Shown piece by piece: positions 226-11,825 of a stretch of DNA of 39,884 nucleotides (its first letter is position 1; every line of letters starts with the position of its first letter). The position numbers and the translations under genes are program-made. The stretch is from positions 1-39,884 of the forward strand of contig VAXZ01000114.1 in assembly GCA_005885035.1 (NCBI GenBank). The letters run 5' to 3'. The DNA comes from Actinomycetota bacterium (GTDB taxonomy: Bacteria > Actinomycetota > UBA4738 > HRBIN12). The notes below the pieces were generated by a model that was not told where the DNA came from, ran no database searches, and worked only from the letters and a program-made list of their open reading frames with translations.

Positions 226-1458
226 ATGGCTGCCGATCGATCGATCGAGTTCGACTTCGACAGGATCGACGGGTTGATCGCCGAAGAGGAGGCAGCCCTC
301 GAGCCGAAGCACAAGGCGTCCATCGCCTACCGGACGGTCGCCGAGCGCTACGTCGCCGGCGGCGTCGCCTCCAGCTGGCAGGATTCCCGACCCCACGCGA
401 TCTTCATCGATCACGGACGGGGGGATCGGATCTACGACATCGACGGCAACGAGTACATCGATTTCCATCTGGGCTACGGCGCCATGGTGGTTGGGCACGC
501 ACACCCCTTGATCGTGGATGCGATCGAGAAAGCCGCTCACGGCGGGACGCACTTCGCCCAGCCGACGAAGGACCTGGGCGTGATCGGGGAGAACCTCGCG
601 GATCGCTTCAAACTGCCGCTCTGGCGCTTCGCGAACTCCGGAACCGAAACGACGCTCGAGGCTATCCGCCTGATGCGGGCGAACACGGGCCGCGACATGC
701 TCATCAAGATCGAGGGGAGCTATCACGGGCACCACGACTCGATCATGTTCAGCGTCGGTCCCGACCGCTCGCAGATCGGGCCGCGCGAGCACCCGATCAC
801 CGTCCCGCAGGCGATGGGCATCCCGCAGGCCTTCGCCGATCTCGTGCGCGTCGTGCCGTTTAACGACCTGGTCGAGGCGCGTCGCGCGTTCGAGGAGAAC
901 CCGGGGAAGATCGCCGGCATGATCGTCGAACCGGCCATGATGAACTGCGGCGTGATCCTCCCGGAGGCTGGCTATCTCGAGGGGCTCAAGGAGCTCTGCC
1001 ACGAGCACGGCGCCTACCTCTTCAGGCCCGTCATCGAGGCCGAGTACGACATGGCCGGCACCTTCAACGGGAACCCGCTCACCATGGCGGCGACGCGCAC
1101 GACCCTCACCGAAGTGCTCACGCCCGATGTCTACGAGCAGTTCAACCGGGTCGACAAGGCGATGAAGGACGGGCTGACCTCCGTCGCAGAGCGCTACCGT
1201 CTCCCGTGCTACGTGACGGGCGTCGGGGCGAAGGGATCCGTGATCTATTCGAAGCAGCGGGTCCGGGAATACCGCGACGCGGTCGGCATCGACGAGCGGA
1301 TCAGCTACCTCGCGTGGCTGTTCCAGCAGAACCGCGGCGTGTTCAAGTCCCCATGGACCACGCAGGAGACGTGGACGCTCTCGGTCTTCCACACCGAGGA
1401 TGACGCGGCACGCTACGTGGCGAACTTCGAGGAGTTCGCGGCCGCCGTGGCCTCGTGA
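226..1458 (+). CDS. Class-III aminotransferase / glutamate-1-semialdehyde aminomutase-like protein, internally shortened (lacks PLP-lysine segment)
   Basis: GTHFAQPT, NSGTETTLEAIRLMRA, GSYHGHHD and GTFNGNPLTMAA motifs; ATG at 226 preceded by gaggagg; 48 residues missing relative to the paralog at 2396..3772. Confidence 0.85.
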   Translation: MAADRSIEFDFDRIDGLIAEEEAALEPKHKASIAYRTVAERYVAGGVASSWQDSRPHAIFIDHGRGDRIYDIDGNEYIDFHLGYGAMVVGHAHPLIVDAIEKAAHGGTHFAQPTKDLGVIGENLADRFKLPLWRFANSGTETTLEAIRLMRANTGRDMLIKIEGSYHGHHDSIMFSVGPDRSQIGPREHPITVPQAMGIPQAFADLVRVVPFNDLVEARRAFEENPGKIAGMIVEPAMMNCGVILPEAGYLEGLKELCHEHGAYLFRPVIEAEYDMAGTFNGNPLTMAATRTTLTEVLTPDVYEQFNRVDKAMKDGLTSVAERYRLPCYVTGVGAKGSVIYSKQRVREYRDAVGIDERISYLAWLFQQNRGVFKSPWTTQETWTLSVFHTEDDAARYVANFEEFAAAVAS

Positions 1459-2399
1459 GCGCGTTTGCGGCAACGCCGGCTCCACACGAGACTAACCGGA
1501 TGATCGACATCGCCGCTCCGATGGAGCTTCCCCTGCCCGATGGCCGGGTCGTCAACGTCTACGTCGACGGCCCCGAAGACGGGACGCCGCTCATCTCGCA
1601 CCACGGGACGCCAGGGGCCGGGGTACCGATGCCGTCGTTCGTTCGAGCCGCCGCCGAGCGCGGGCTCCGTTGGGTTTCCTACAGCCGTCCGGGGTACGGC
1701 GAGTCGACGCGGGCGGGGGGCCGCGCCGTCGCGGACTGCGTCCGCGACGTCGCGGCGATCGCCGACCACCTGGGCGCCGATCGATTCTTCACGTCGGGAG
1801 GGTCCGGTGGAGGGCCGCACACGCTCGCGTGTGCGGCTCTGCTCCCGGATCGGGTTCGGGGCTGTGCGGCGATCGCCTGCCCCGCCCCGTGGGGCGCCGA
1901 GGGGCTCGACTGGCTCGCGGGCCAGGGTCCCGAGAACCTCGAGGAGTTCGGCGCGGCCCTCGAAGGACCGGAGGCCCTCGAGACGTACCTCGTGCGGGAG
2001 TCGGGTCCGCTCGGCGCCGTGAGCGACCCGGACGAGATGATCAAGGCGCTCGGGGAAGGACTGTTGCCCGACGTCGACCGCGCGGCGATCAGCGGCGAGT
2101 ACGCGACCACGCTGATCGCATCCATGAAGCGCGCGGTCATGAAGGGCGTCTGGGGATGGTTCGACGACGACATGGCCTTCCTGCATGACTGGGGCTTCTC
2201 GCTCGATGCGATCGAGGTCCCCGTAGCGCTCTGGCAGGGCAGGCTGGACAAGATGGTCCCGTTCGCGCACGGCGAGTGGATGGCGTCCCACGTTCCGAAC
2301 GCGCGTCCCCACCTGCTCGAGGATCAGGGCCATCTCTCGATCGCGGTCGGCTCGTTCCCGCTGATCCTGGACGACCTCCTGGGGCATGCGCTCCCGTGA
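1455..2399 (+). CDS. Alpha/beta hydrolase fold protein
   Basis: HHGTPGAG oxyanion region, nucleophile elbow GGSGGG, C-terminal GHLSI; GTG start overlaps upstream TGA (alternative ATG at 1500). Confidence 0.85.
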   Translation: MSAFAATPAPHETNRMIDIAAPMELPLPDGRVVNVYVDGPEDGTPLISHHGTPGAGVPMPSFVRAAAERGLRWVSYSRPGYGESTRAGGRAVADCVRDVAAIADHLGADRFFTSGGSGGGPHTLACAALLPDRVRGCAAIACPAPWGAEGLDWLAGQGPENLEEFGAALEGPEALETYLVRESGPLGAVSDPDEMIKALGEGLLPDVDRAAISGEYATTLIASMKRAVMKGVWGWFDDDMAFLHDWGFSLDAIEVPVALWQGRLDKMVPFAHGEWMASHVPNARPHLLEDQGHLSIAVGSFPLILDDLLGHALP

Positions 2400-3772
2400 G
2401 CACCGGGACCGACGTCGTCGAGATCGACCTCGCGCTCGTCGAGGAGCTGACGAAGCGTGAGATCGCGGCGCTCGACGAGAAGCACGTTCGGAGCCTCGCG
2501 TACCGCGAGGAGGCGAAGACCCACCTGCCGGGCGGCGTGTCGTCGTCGTGGCAGACGTGGCCGCCGCATCCGATCTACGTCGCGCGCGGTCGGGGGTCCC
2601 ACGTGTGGGACATCGATGGGAACGAGTACGTCGACTACCACAACGGCTACGGCGTCATGGTGATGGGTCATGCGCACCCGAAGATCGTCGAGGCCGTCCA
2701 CCGTCGCGTCGAGCTCGGGACGCACTTCGCCCAGCCGACCGAGGACGCGCTCGTCGTCGCGGAGGAGCTCGAGGCGAGGTACCGGCTCCCGTACTGGCGC
2801 TTCGGCAACTCGGGGACCGAGTCGACGCTCGACGCGGTCCGGATCATGCGTGCGCTCACGGGTCGGAACCTGATCATGAAGATCGAGGGGTCGTACCACG
2901 GCCACCACGACTCGTTGATGGTCAGCGTCTTCCCGCCGAGGGACAAGGCCGGCCCGCGGGACCATCCAGTACCGGTCCCGCAGACGCTGGGGATGCCCGA
3001 GGGTGTTGCCGAGCAGGTCGTCGTGGTGCCCTTCAACGACGCCGACGCCTCGGCGAAGGCCTTCGCAGAGCACGACGGGCGGATCGCCGGGATGATCGTG
3101 GAGCCCGTGATGACGAACTGCGGCGTGGTCCTGCCGGATCCGGGCTACCTCGCGCGGCTCAGGGAGATCTGTCACGCGAACGGGGCGCTCCTCGCCTTCG
3201 ACGAGGTGAAGACCGGGTTCACGGTCGCGTGGGGCGGGGCCGTGGAGGCCTTCGACGTCGTGCCCGACATCGTGTGTCTGGCGAAGGCGCTCGGCGGCGG
3301 GCTCCCGTGCGGCGCGATCGGCGGCACCGAGGACGCGATGTCGATGATCATCGACGGCTCGCTCGAACAGGTCGGCACGTTCAACGGCAACCCCCTCACG
3401 ATGGCAGCCGCGAGAGCGAACCTGACCGAGGTCCTCACGAAGGACGCCTACGACGAACTCGACCGGATCCGAGCCGTGTTCCAAGGATGCGACGACGTGA
3501 TCGCGGAGTTCCGGCTGCCGGCGTCGATGAAGCTCCTCGGCGCAAAGGGTTCGATCGATTGGCACACCGAGCCGATCCACGAGTATCGAGACCTCTGGGA
3601 CATCGATGACCGGATCCCTCAGCTCGCGTGGCTCTGGCAGCTGAACCGGGGCGTGTTCAAGTCGCCCGGATCGAAATGGGAGTCGTGGACGTCGTCGATC
3701 GTGCACACCAACGACGACGTCCAGCGATACGTCGACAATTTCCAGGAGATGGCGGACGCCATCACGGCATAG
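2396..3772 (+). CDS. Class-III aminotransferase / glutamate-1-semialdehyde 2,1-aminomutase-like protein (full length)
   Basis: FDEVKTGF (PLP Asp), CLAKALGGGLP (PLP Lys), GTFNGNPLTMAAA; GTG start overlaps the hydrolase stop. Confidence 0.88.
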   Translation: MSTGTDVVEIDLALVEELTKREIAALDEKHVRSLAYREEAKTHLPGGVSSSWQTWPPHPIYVARGRGSHVWDIDGNEYVDYHNGYGVMVMGHAHPKIVEAVHRRVELGTHFAQPTEDALVVAEELEARYRLPYWRFGNSGTESTLDAVRIMRALTGRNLIMKIEGSYHGHHDSLMVSVFPPRDKAGPRDHPVPVPQTLGMPEGVAEQVVVVPFNDADASAKAFAEHDGRIAGMIVEPVMTNCGVVLPDPGYLARLREICHANGALLAFDEVKTGFTVAWGGAVEAFDVVPDIVCLAKALGGGLPCGAIGGTEDAMSMIIDGSLEQVGTFNGNPLTMAAARANLTEVLTKDAYDELDRIRAVFQGCDDVIAEFRLPASMKLLGAKGSIDWHTEPIHEYRDLWDIDDRIPQLAWLWQLNRGVFKSPGSKWESWTSSIVHTNDDVQRYVDNFQEMADAITA

Positions 3773-3824: not shown

Positions 3825-4947
3825 ATGAGCGAGACCGAGGACCTGGAGGCTGAAGCCGCGGTGGAGAGGGCCGCGCCCGCCGACGGGTCGATGCCGCCGT
3901 GGCTCCCGGAAGCCATCAAGATGGCCGGCAAACGGCTCGGGTTCGCATTGTTCGCCGCCGGGATCTCGATCCTCGTCTTCCTCTACCTCGTCGACCAGCT
4001 CAGCAGCTTCCTCACGATGATCGGGATCGCCCTGTTCCTCTCGTTCGCGCTGGAGCCGGCGGTCGACTACCTCGCCACGCGTGGATGGAAGCGAGGGGCC
4101 GCCACCGGACTGATGCCCGCTCGGCATCAAGCTCTCGACCGACCAGCTGATCCAGAAGCTGCAGGAGAACGCGCAACAGGTGATCAGCTCCGCGACGAAC
4201 GTCGCCGGGACGGTCTTCGGGATCGCGAGCTCGTTGATCGGGGGTCTGTTCCGCTGGGCGACGATCGGCTTGTTCACCTTCTACTTCGTGGCGCAGGGAC
4301 CGCAGTTCCGTCGCGCGTTGCTGTCACGGATGCGTCCCGAACGGCAGGCTCGCGTCTTGTTCGTGTGGGAACAGGCGATCCAGCAGACGGGCGGCTACTT
4401 CTATTCGCGTCTCCTGCTCGCCGTGATCAACGGCTCGGGCATGTACCTGACCTTGCGGTTAACCAACGTCCCGTTCGCGGCGCCGCTCGCGATCTTCGAG
4501 GGCCTCGTCGCGGAGTTCATCCCGATCGTGGGGACCTACATCGGCGGCGCCGTGCCGATCCTGGTCGCCTTCCTGGCTGCCGCGACTAGCCTGGCCTCCC
4601 CGGCAGCGGGCCTCTGGGCGGTCGGGTACGTCCTCGTCTACCAGCAGATCGAGAACTACATCCTCAGTCCGCGGATCACCGCGAAGACCATGTCGCTGCA
4701 TCCGGCGGTCGCGTTCGCGGCGGCCCTGATCGGCGGAGCGCTCGGTGGGTTGTTCATGGCGTTCCTCGCCTTGCCGGTCGCGGGGGTGATCCAAGCGTCG
4801 GTGAAGGAATGGTCGAAGAGCTACGACGTGGTGGGCGACGTCTTGACGGCGCCGAAACCGGTTCCGGTTCGTGAACACTTGCTGATGCGTGTGCGAAGTC
4901 GGTTCCGGTCGAGGACCGTTCCGCCCGGCGACGGCTCGGACCGTTGA
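3825..4947 (+). pseudogene. AI-2E family transporter, disrupted by internal deletion/frameshift near 4100-4125
   Basis: N-terminal part in one frame (...SFALEPAVDYLATRGWKRGAATGL); C-terminal part in another frame starts ...LGIKLSTDQLIQKLQENAQQVISSATNVAGTVFGIASS and continues with QQIENYILSPRI...LHPAVAFAAALIGGALGG. Confidence 0.8.
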
Positions 4948-8575: not shown

Positions 8576-8784
8576 GTGCATGGTGAGTCCAGGACGGGGA
8601 GGCCGATCCCGAGACGACCAGTCGCACGGTAGGACCTGACGTGGAAGGACGTCCCGATACACGTCGGCACGATGTCGCGAGAATGCCCGGGGATCTCTGA
8701 GGAGTGCGTCGGGTCCGGAGCGTCCCGAACCCTTCGGGTCGAGTCTCGCCATGAGGGCTCGGCGGTCGGCGTCGTTCATCTCGA

Positions 8785-8820
8785 CGCCTTGACCGAACTC
8801 GGCGCCTTGACCGAACTCGG
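8785..8820. repeat. 18-bp tandem duplication (2 exact copies)
   Basis: cgccttgaccgaactcgg x2, just downstream of the STAS gene. Confidence 0.9.
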
Positions 8821-8822
8821 CG

Positions 8823-9191
8823 CTACGCGGATCGGAGCAGGGGCGCGATATGGACGCCGCGGAAAGTCTCCGCCCCGATCAACATCAACACCTTGAGGAC
8901 CATCGGCGAGGGCGTTTCAAGGACAACGCTTCCTCGGCCAGCGATGATGCCGCCGACGACCCCGATCGCATGGCCGCCGGCGACGTCCATGAATGTCAGC
9001 TCGCGCAGATCCAGCGTGATGGTCCCGCCTCGGTTGATCGCCTGCCGAAGACTGTTGAACAGGTCGTCGACGTTCCCCATGTCGAGTTCGCCGACGAGCG
9101 CGAAATGCCCGTCCGCGCCGAGGTGCCTGACGTCGAACGCCCCATCTCGTCTGACCTCGAAAGACCCGTTCGGGGGCATGGCGTCCTCCAT
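8823..9191 (-). CDS. STAS-domain protein (anti-sigma factor antagonist-like)
   Basis: LVGELDMGNVDDL..., TITLDLRELTFMDVAGGHAIGVV..., LETPSPMVLKVLMLIGAETF. Confidence 0.8.
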   Translation of the reverse strand: MEDAMPPNGSFEVRRDGAFDVRHLGADGHFALVGELDMGNVDDLFNSLRQAINRGGTITLDLRELTFMDVAGGHAIGVVGGIIAGRGSVVLETPSPMVLKVLMLIGAETFRGVHIAPLLRSA

Positions 9192-9360
9192 GAAGAGCGT
9201 GAGCGGCAGCGGTATACAGCGGCCGAAGGACGGTGTCGGTCAACTACCGGACGTAGCCGCTGACGAAGTTCGCCAATAACTCCGTCGAACTCTGCGGCCA
9301 CCAGTACGGCTTGCAGATCCGGGTCCGACGTCTCGAAGGCGGGGAACCGCTCGCCAGCGG

Positions 9361-10074
9361 TCAGGAGAAGGGCGAGAGGAGCTGCTCGTATTCCGATCGA
9401 ACGACCGCGTAACACTCGCACGAGGCTTCCTCGAGGCCTGATCGGTCGAGGATGGTGACCTGTCCCCGGTGATATTTGATCAGGCCTGCGGCCTGGAGCG
9501 TGCCAGCGGCGACGGAGACCGACGGGCGGGTGACGCCCAGCATGTCGGCCAGGAACTCCTGCGTGAGCTGGAACTCGTCGCCGTCCGCTCGGTCGTGGGA
9601 TTCGAGGAGCCATTTCGCGGTTCGTTGCTGGATCTCATGGACGCCGTTGCACGCCACGGCCTGTGCGATCTGGGCGAAGAGCGCTTGCATGTACGCCATC
9701 ATGATGTCGCGCATCTTCCCGTCGCCATCGACGAAAGCCCGGAATGAGTCCACGCCGAGCGACAGCATCTCCCCAGGGACCTGGGACATCGCCTGCCCGT
9801 TGTTCAGTACCCCACCTCCGAGGAAGGCATGGACCCCGACCATCCCCTCCTTGCCGACGGTCGCGGTCTCGATCGCCCTGCCGTCCGCGAGCGGCGTCAT
9901 CAGAGAGACCACGCCGGACGTCGGGAAGTGAACCTTCCGCATCGGCTGGCCCGCGGCCTGCAGCACATCGTGGGGCGTGATGGGTCCCCGGTCCATCATC
10001 GAGACCAGGTCGGACCGTTCATCGTGGGGTAGCAGATCGAGCAACCGGTTGCGCGGGCGCGCCGCTTCGGCCAT
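9361..10074 (-). CDS. Crp/Fnr-family transcriptional regulator
   Basis: Cyclic-nucleotide-like N-terminal domain (HFPTSGVVSLMTPLADGRAIETATVGKEGMVG) and HTH (LTQEFLADMLGVTRPSVSVAAGTLQAAGLIKYHRGQVTILD). Confidence 0.9.
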   Translation of the reverse strand: MAEAARPRNRLLDLLPHDERSDLVSMMDRGPITPHDVLQAAGQPMRKVHFPTSGVVSLMTPLADGRAIETATVGKEGMVGVHAFLGGGVLNNGQAMSQVPGEMLSLGVDSFRAFVDGDGKMRDIMMAYMQALFAQIAQAVACNGVHEIQQRTAKWLLESHDRADGDEFQLTQEFLADMLGVTRPSVSVAAGTLQAAGLIKYHRGQVTILDRSGLEEASCECYAVVRSEYEQLLSPFS

Positions 10075-10694
10075 CGCCTTCTCCCTTCGGCAGGGGCGCG
10101 TATCGGGGTCCGGGGCCGAAGAGGCGACTGGCGAAGCCCGTCAGGAGGGCCGGGAACACCGGCAAACGTCCGGTGAGTTCCTTGGATCGAGTCTACTCGT
10201 CCGTCGAGCTCCGATGCGTTGGCTACGCCGCCCTTCATCGTTCTTCGCCCAAACGCTCGGGTACCACGGCCATCCGCGCCCTCAAAGGCGTCTCCACGAA
10301 CGTCTGCGGCCACCAGTACCCATGCCGAGCGGCAGACGCGCAGACCTTCGCGCTTCCGATCCCGCCGCTCATCGTCGGGAAGGAGGCCAGGGCCCCACCC
10401 ATCGGACCCTAGCCTGGATCGCTGAGTCCGGACCCTCGAGCTGCGTGGACCGATCGGGCGGTTGCATCCGGATGTCGCGACGCCGGGCGTAGCAGAACCT
10501 TCCGACCGGGAGCAAGGCCCGGGAGCCTCGCGCGGAAGAGACGAGCCAGAAGGGGATCGAACGCGACTCGCGCTGATGGTTGTCCGTCCGGGCCCGATAG
10601 ACCGCCAAACTTCGTCGTTCGGTCAGCTACCGGTCCGACGCCACCGACCGGCGGCCATATACGGTCCGTCGTCGGATCTTCCAGGGGGTAGGGG

Positions 10695-10871
10695 ATGCCC
10701 GTGGATAGCACGGGGATCAGCGGGTTGTTCGAAGTCGGCCGTCACGCCGCCGCATGCGGAACCGCCGTCATCGTCCGGACGCCCTCACCGCCGGTCCTCA
10801 GGGTCTTGGAGATCGTGCGGGCCGATCGGTTCGCCGGGATAGGGATCGAGATCCCTCCGTCTGCTGCCTGA
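10695..10871 (+). pseudogene. Truncated STAS-domain fragment (C-terminal half)
   Basis: Manual translation MPVDSTGISGLFEVGRHAAACGTAVIVRTPSPPVLRVLEIVRADRFAGIGIEIPPSAA*; resembles the C-terminal half of the STAS protein at 8823..9191 (TPSPxVLxVL); in-frame TAG lies two codons upstream of the ATG. Confidence 0.6.
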
Positions 10872-10962
10872 CAGACGTCGCCCCGCGGTTGGACAACGAT
10901 CGTGGTCGGTTCCTCGGGTCCCTTGGTTCCCGTCGGGGACACCGAGGACCACGTACCACCTT

Positions 10963-10999
10963 CGGGGCGGCCCGGCCTTCGAGCGGAAGGGCCGCCCCG
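10963..10999. repeat. Strong GC-rich inverted repeat (11-bp perfect stem)
   Basis: cggggcggccc ... gggccgccccg; second hairpin just upstream at 10921-10947. Confidence 0.7.
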
Positions 11000-11291
11000 T
11001 CCATATCCCCCGGACGAGCGTGCCAGTGAGCCGCACCCTCATCGTGAGGGCGGGTCTAAGCAGCCCTCGGGCTCGGGGGCGCGAACGACGCGCGAAACAA
11101 GTACCTCTCCGTTCGCCCGCCTGGTTCGCCCTCCACAACCCGGCGCCCCCGGCCGGGATCTGGGTTACGAAACGCACCGGCTCTCCATCGGATCCAGGGC
11201 GATGCGCCCTCGTTCACCCCAGTAGACATTCACTGTTGCGCGAGCGAAGGTTGGCCGCTGCCTGACGTGGCAGCTCAGAAGGAGGAGAGTC

Positions 11292-11402
11292 ATGAGCGAT
11301 CCGATGCCGCCGCCCGAACCGGAAGAGCCGCCTCAGCCCGAGCAGCCGCAGGCGATGGAGTCGGCTATGCGGCCCGAGGACGCCGATACTCCCGAAGCGT
11401 AG
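11292..11402 (+). CDS. 36-aa proline-rich acidic small protein (untracked small ORF)
   Basis: Strong SD agaaggaggag directly upstream of ATG; translation MSDPMPPPEPEEPPQPEQPQAMESAMRPEDADTPEA*. Confidence 0.5.
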   Translation: MSDPMPPPEPEEPPQPEQPQAMESAMRPEDADTPEA

Positions 11403-11608
11403 TTCTGGAGGACGGTCAGTTTTCCACGACTGGGCCAGCCGCCCCGGTCGTGGGTGAACCATGTGCTCAGTCCGGCCGTGGATCGCATCGTGTCAGCTAT
11501 CATTCGCCGGATCAGATCGAACATCCCTTGCGATCTCCCGCACCCGCCGCGTCGCAAGCAAGCTGAGGACACTCGGGATCGAGATCGTGGATGGTTCAAG
11601 GTAGCCGT

Positions 11609-11636
11609 TGACAACCGTGTTGTTGCCCGGTTGTCA
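11609..11636. repeat. 9-bp perfect inverted repeat, 10-nt loop
   Basis: tgacaaccg-tgttgttgcc-cggttgtca. Confidence 0.65.
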
Positions 11637-11825
11637 GGGGACGCAGATGATCTCAGTGAGAGTCTCGCCGTGAGCTTGCGGGACGGCAGAGGATCCCACC
11701 AGTGTCCCTGTTCACGGCACCCACAGGCTCAGCCCTCTCGAGGGCTTCGGGGGGCTGGTTTGCAGGAGCGTCACAGGCTGCAGGTCGTCTGCCGGGTCTT
11801 CTTCGTTTCCGCAGGTGAGAAGAAG

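Follow-up and report, generated by a model that had tools for sequence, protein, structure and literature searches.

The 144-nucleotide deletion that removes the PLP-binding core from a class-III aminotransferase gene in the draft genome studied here (G000) is very probably an artefact of scaffolding or assembly. Judging from comparison with related genomes, the organism probably has an intact gene that encodes an ordinary full-length aminotransferase. This gene, which we call AT1 (copy 1, 226-1458), is followed by a paralog, AT2 (copy 2, 2396-3772), within the window, which is the whole stretch of 39,884 nucleotides that was analysed. We compared G000 with two genomes of the same genus, G001 and G002, and with a family set of 16 further genomes; 13 AT1 orthologs were alignable across the site. 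For the genome-wide comparison, about 650 kb of G000 (from sampled contigs) was set against about 764 kb of G002, and about 220 kb could be aligned. The features discussed are collected in Table 1.

As assembled, the AT1 frame runs from an ATG at 226 to a TGA at 1456-1458, encodes 410 amino acids and is open throughout. Exactly 48 codons are gone between GCCTACCTC and TTCAGGCCC, at 1018-1020. On the two sides of this gap AT1 is 55% and 51% identical to AT2, and it is 94% and 96% identical to one of its same-genus orthologs and 92% and 94% identical to the other. Read from the G001 ortholog, the absent block holds the motifs FDEVKTG and CLAKAIGGG, and with them both the PLP-binding Asp and the Schiff-base Lys. 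AT1 as assembled therefore lacks both catalytic residues, which are present in AT2 and in all 13 orthologs. The in-frame loss described in an earlier note on this DNA is thus borne out by alignment with AT2 and with the same-genus orthologs, as is its statement that the frame stays open to its own stop and is coupled to the next gene, since the TGA shares bases with the GTG at 1455 that starts the alpha/beta hydrolase gene. That note had also described a stretch of 12 residues, FRPVIEAEYDMA, standing where AT2 has 60. The stretch is there, but it is no substitute for the 60 residues: in the closest orthologs it follows the missing block as part of the native sequence. Because G001 carries exactly LFRPVIEAEYDMA at that place, the change in AT1 is a pure loss, with no replacement.

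Table 1. Features of the window and genes of G000 affected by blunt losses
Feature	Position	Strand	Observation	Basis
AT1, class-III aminotransferase (PF00202) gene	226..1458	+	lacks 48 codons as assembled	ORF, profile matches, 13 intact family orthologs
Blunt join in AT1	1018..1020	.	144 nt of G001 and G002 absent; at most 3 shared bases (CTC)	genome alignment
Alpha/beta hydrolase gene (PF00561)	1455..2399	+	between the two aminotransferase genes	ORF, profile match
AT2, class-III aminotransferase	2396..3772	+	full length, with FDEVKTG and CLAKALGGG	ORF, profile match, alignment
AI-2E-family transporter gene	3825..4947	+	split into two frames in the assembly	two ORFs; intact G002 ortholog L133:9565-10794 matches PF01594
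Second blunt join	4114..4117	.	125 nt of G001 and G002 absent, which puts the AI-2E gene out of frame	genome alignment
nusB (NusB)	L296:8758 (G000:C135)		92 nt blunt loss, frameshift	bases present in G001 and G002
Sensor histidine kinase gene			109 nt blunt loss	profile match of G002 frame
MFS transporter gene			106 nt blunt loss	profile match of G002 frame
Molybdopterin-cofactor dehydrogenase subunit gene			109 nt blunt loss	profile match of G002 frame
PAC2-family protein gene			119 nt blunt loss	profile match of G002 frame
Amino-acid oxidase gene			135 nt blunt loss, in frame	profile match of G002 frame

Both proteins exceed the gathering cut-off of the PF00202 profile (30.5 bits), AT2 with 201.7 bits and AT1 with 143.6 bits in two stretches. 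By sequence, AT1 and AT2 are closest to the glutamate-1-semialdehyde aminomutase group, yet they fall under the curated cut-offs for hemL, with 254.3 bits for AT1 and 351.6 bits for AT2 against the TIGR00713 equivalog cut-off of 527.3 bits. Like the members of this group, the AT1 orthologs and AT2 are full-length and carry DEVKTG and AKA.GGG; AT1 as assembled differs from them in having no catalytic block. The two genes adjoin each other in most family genomes, and by sequence they are, in the relatives, an ordinary tandem pair of paralogs that both look catalytically complete. The tandem arrangement (window 226-3772; L039, L041 and L043-L047 in the relatives) is kept across the family, sometimes with the hydrolase gene between the two. 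The window also contains about 3.1 kb (8683-11824) for which G002 has no counterpart in its collinear stretch (C30:54531-54541).

One reading put forward in the earlier note was that AT1 could be a pseudoenzyme subunit for AT2; in such a dimer AT2 would supply the whole PLP site. As a conserved feature this is already refuted by the ortholog comparison. The short form, which the note had proposed to look for in close genomes, is absent from all 13 family orthologs, and the intact segment with its Asp and Lys is present in every one of them, both same-genus genomes included; among the matches listed, G000 alone matches across the AT1 site without a break. Since it occurs in no other family genome, the short form is, on these alignments, not conserved in the family. 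The neighbouring positions of AT1 and AT2 in most family genomes do leave room for the intact proteins to function as a pair, but a functional pseudoenzyme is, on this evidence, very unlikely. The lost block presumably comprises central strands of the large domain (fold type I), and from what is generally known of this fold a folded subunit would hardly be possible after its loss. The narrower proposal, that a real in-frame deletion removed the PLP site in this strain and that the remnant still partners AT2, is likewise extremely improbable. We found nothing apt in the literature on pseudoenzyme class-III aminotransferases. In G000, which is only 87% complete, a second, intact copy of AT1 was not found elsewhere.

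It is a separate question whether a recent in-frame deletion, in the strain or in part of the population, has inactivated AT1. The open frame and the coupling of its stop to the next gene both fit a real deletion. The dN/dS analysis suggested in the earlier note gave about 0.08 between G000 and G001, which indicates purifying selection, and residues unique to each branch number eight for G000, six for G001 and 17 for G002. Neither measure gives any sign of relaxed selection or acceleration of AT1 on the G000 branch, though a low dN/dS would be equally expected if the lesion were very recent. A real deletion has against it that no direct repeats are found at the ends of the join; deletion by way of such repeats was considered and rejected, the ends sharing at most three bases.

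A real deletion in AT1 would also have to share the window with a second such loss, at a join about 3.1 kb downstream that likewise has no repeat at its ends. The AI-2E-family transporter gene that this join interrupts is intact in both G001 and G002, and its break is probably an assembly error of the same kind as the AT1 join, to judge from the alignments. Because two blunt losses of similar size lay so close together in the window, we checked for further cases genome-wide.

This comparison revealed 15 blunt losses of 74-144 nt in G000 relative to G002 in the roughly 220 kb aligned (mean 115, sd 19), against none of 70-200 nt in the reverse direction (sign test, 6e-5). Nine of them are also visible against G001, and they are therefore losses in G000 rather than gains in G002. 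Their sizes fall into the three classes modulo 3 in a chance-like way (4/5/6), four of the 15 being divisible by three. Fourteen of the losses fall inside frames of G002 that are free of stops. The genes affected were identified by profile matches of the intact G002 frame, and at a few loss sites frames overlap on both strands, which makes the gene assignment uncertain there. The junctions have almost no sequence in common. We also considered whether GC-rich or strongly folding stretches had dropped out in sequencing, and rejected this candidate, since the lost segments match random G002 segments both in GC content (0.68) and in folding energy per base. G001 has blunt losses of its own, of 90-164 nt, six of them in 122 kb (L300:2263, L300:20123, L302:3867, L305:2085, L307:5695 and L166:5441), and one of these falls in a gene for a PASTA-domain protein kinase. 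For AT1, the consequence is that a real deletion would have to be set beside 14 similar losses that are indifferent to frame and gene and include one in nusB; losses that occur across the genome in this way are what an artefact would be expected to leave.

An artefact of scaffolding would also be expected to bias the marked gaps by the same amount. Runs of N in G000 range from 4 to 204 bases, with runs as small as 4 and 8 among them. Three gaps could be sized; C147, C162 and C153 were left out because the relatives are non-collinear there. In C16, 128 Ns stand for a true gap of 252 nt (a deficit of 124 nt), and in C35, 21 Ns stand for 135 nt (a deficit of 114 nt), with G001 and G002 concordant in both cases. 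In C20, 204 Ns stand for 342 nt, a deficit of 138 nt that was read from G002 only, at 71-72% identity. In these three gaps the deficits equal the blunt losses in size, and the 144 nt of AT1 lie at the upper end of this range. Since the deficits and the losses agree, it is most likely that the scaffolder set its gap estimates about 115 nt too low. That marked gaps are undersized by the same length also speaks against a real deletion in AT1, which we consider unlikely. The possibility of an assembly error, named in the earlier note beside the biological readings, is by comparison strongly supported by the frame-blind losses of 74-144 nt and the undersized N-gaps.

We propose that an artefact of this kind could arise as follows. 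Two contigs would flank a short unassembled gap, and read pairs would place them adjacent to each other. If the scaffolder then underestimated the gap by about 115-140 nt, its estimate would be zero or less, and the ends would be concatenated without Ns. A single process that underestimates gaps by about 115 nt would thus leave too few Ns in long gaps and none in gaps shorter than the bias, and the open frame across the AT1 join would be a one-in-three chance. Going by the genome-wide pattern and the N-gaps, the scaffolding step was most probably the cause of the AT1 join in particular. Chen et al. (2020, PMC7111523) documented local assembly errors in short-read metagenome assemblies, together with their effect on protein-coding genes, and suspect them to be especially prominent with IDBA-UD. 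The joins in G000 resemble the published errors in that the consensus at a contig join is probably unlike that of the organism and in that incorrect protein-coding genes enter public records. They differ in pattern: what that paper reports is consensus without support and Ns in the wrong place, whereas gaps undersized by about 115 nt, with short ones left without Ns, are what we infer from our own comparison.

These results call for caution, as short scaffold gaps in short-read drafts can be closed with no N to mark them, and roughly a third of such closures would leave an open frame that mimics the clean loss of a domain. Setting marked gaps against the corresponding stretches of relatives, as in the present analysis, can reveal a size bias of this kind without recourse to reads. 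Joins of this kind occur in G000 roughly once every 15 kb, and wherever this genome shows an in-frame loss or a split gene on the scale of about 75-145 nt, it should be distrusted.
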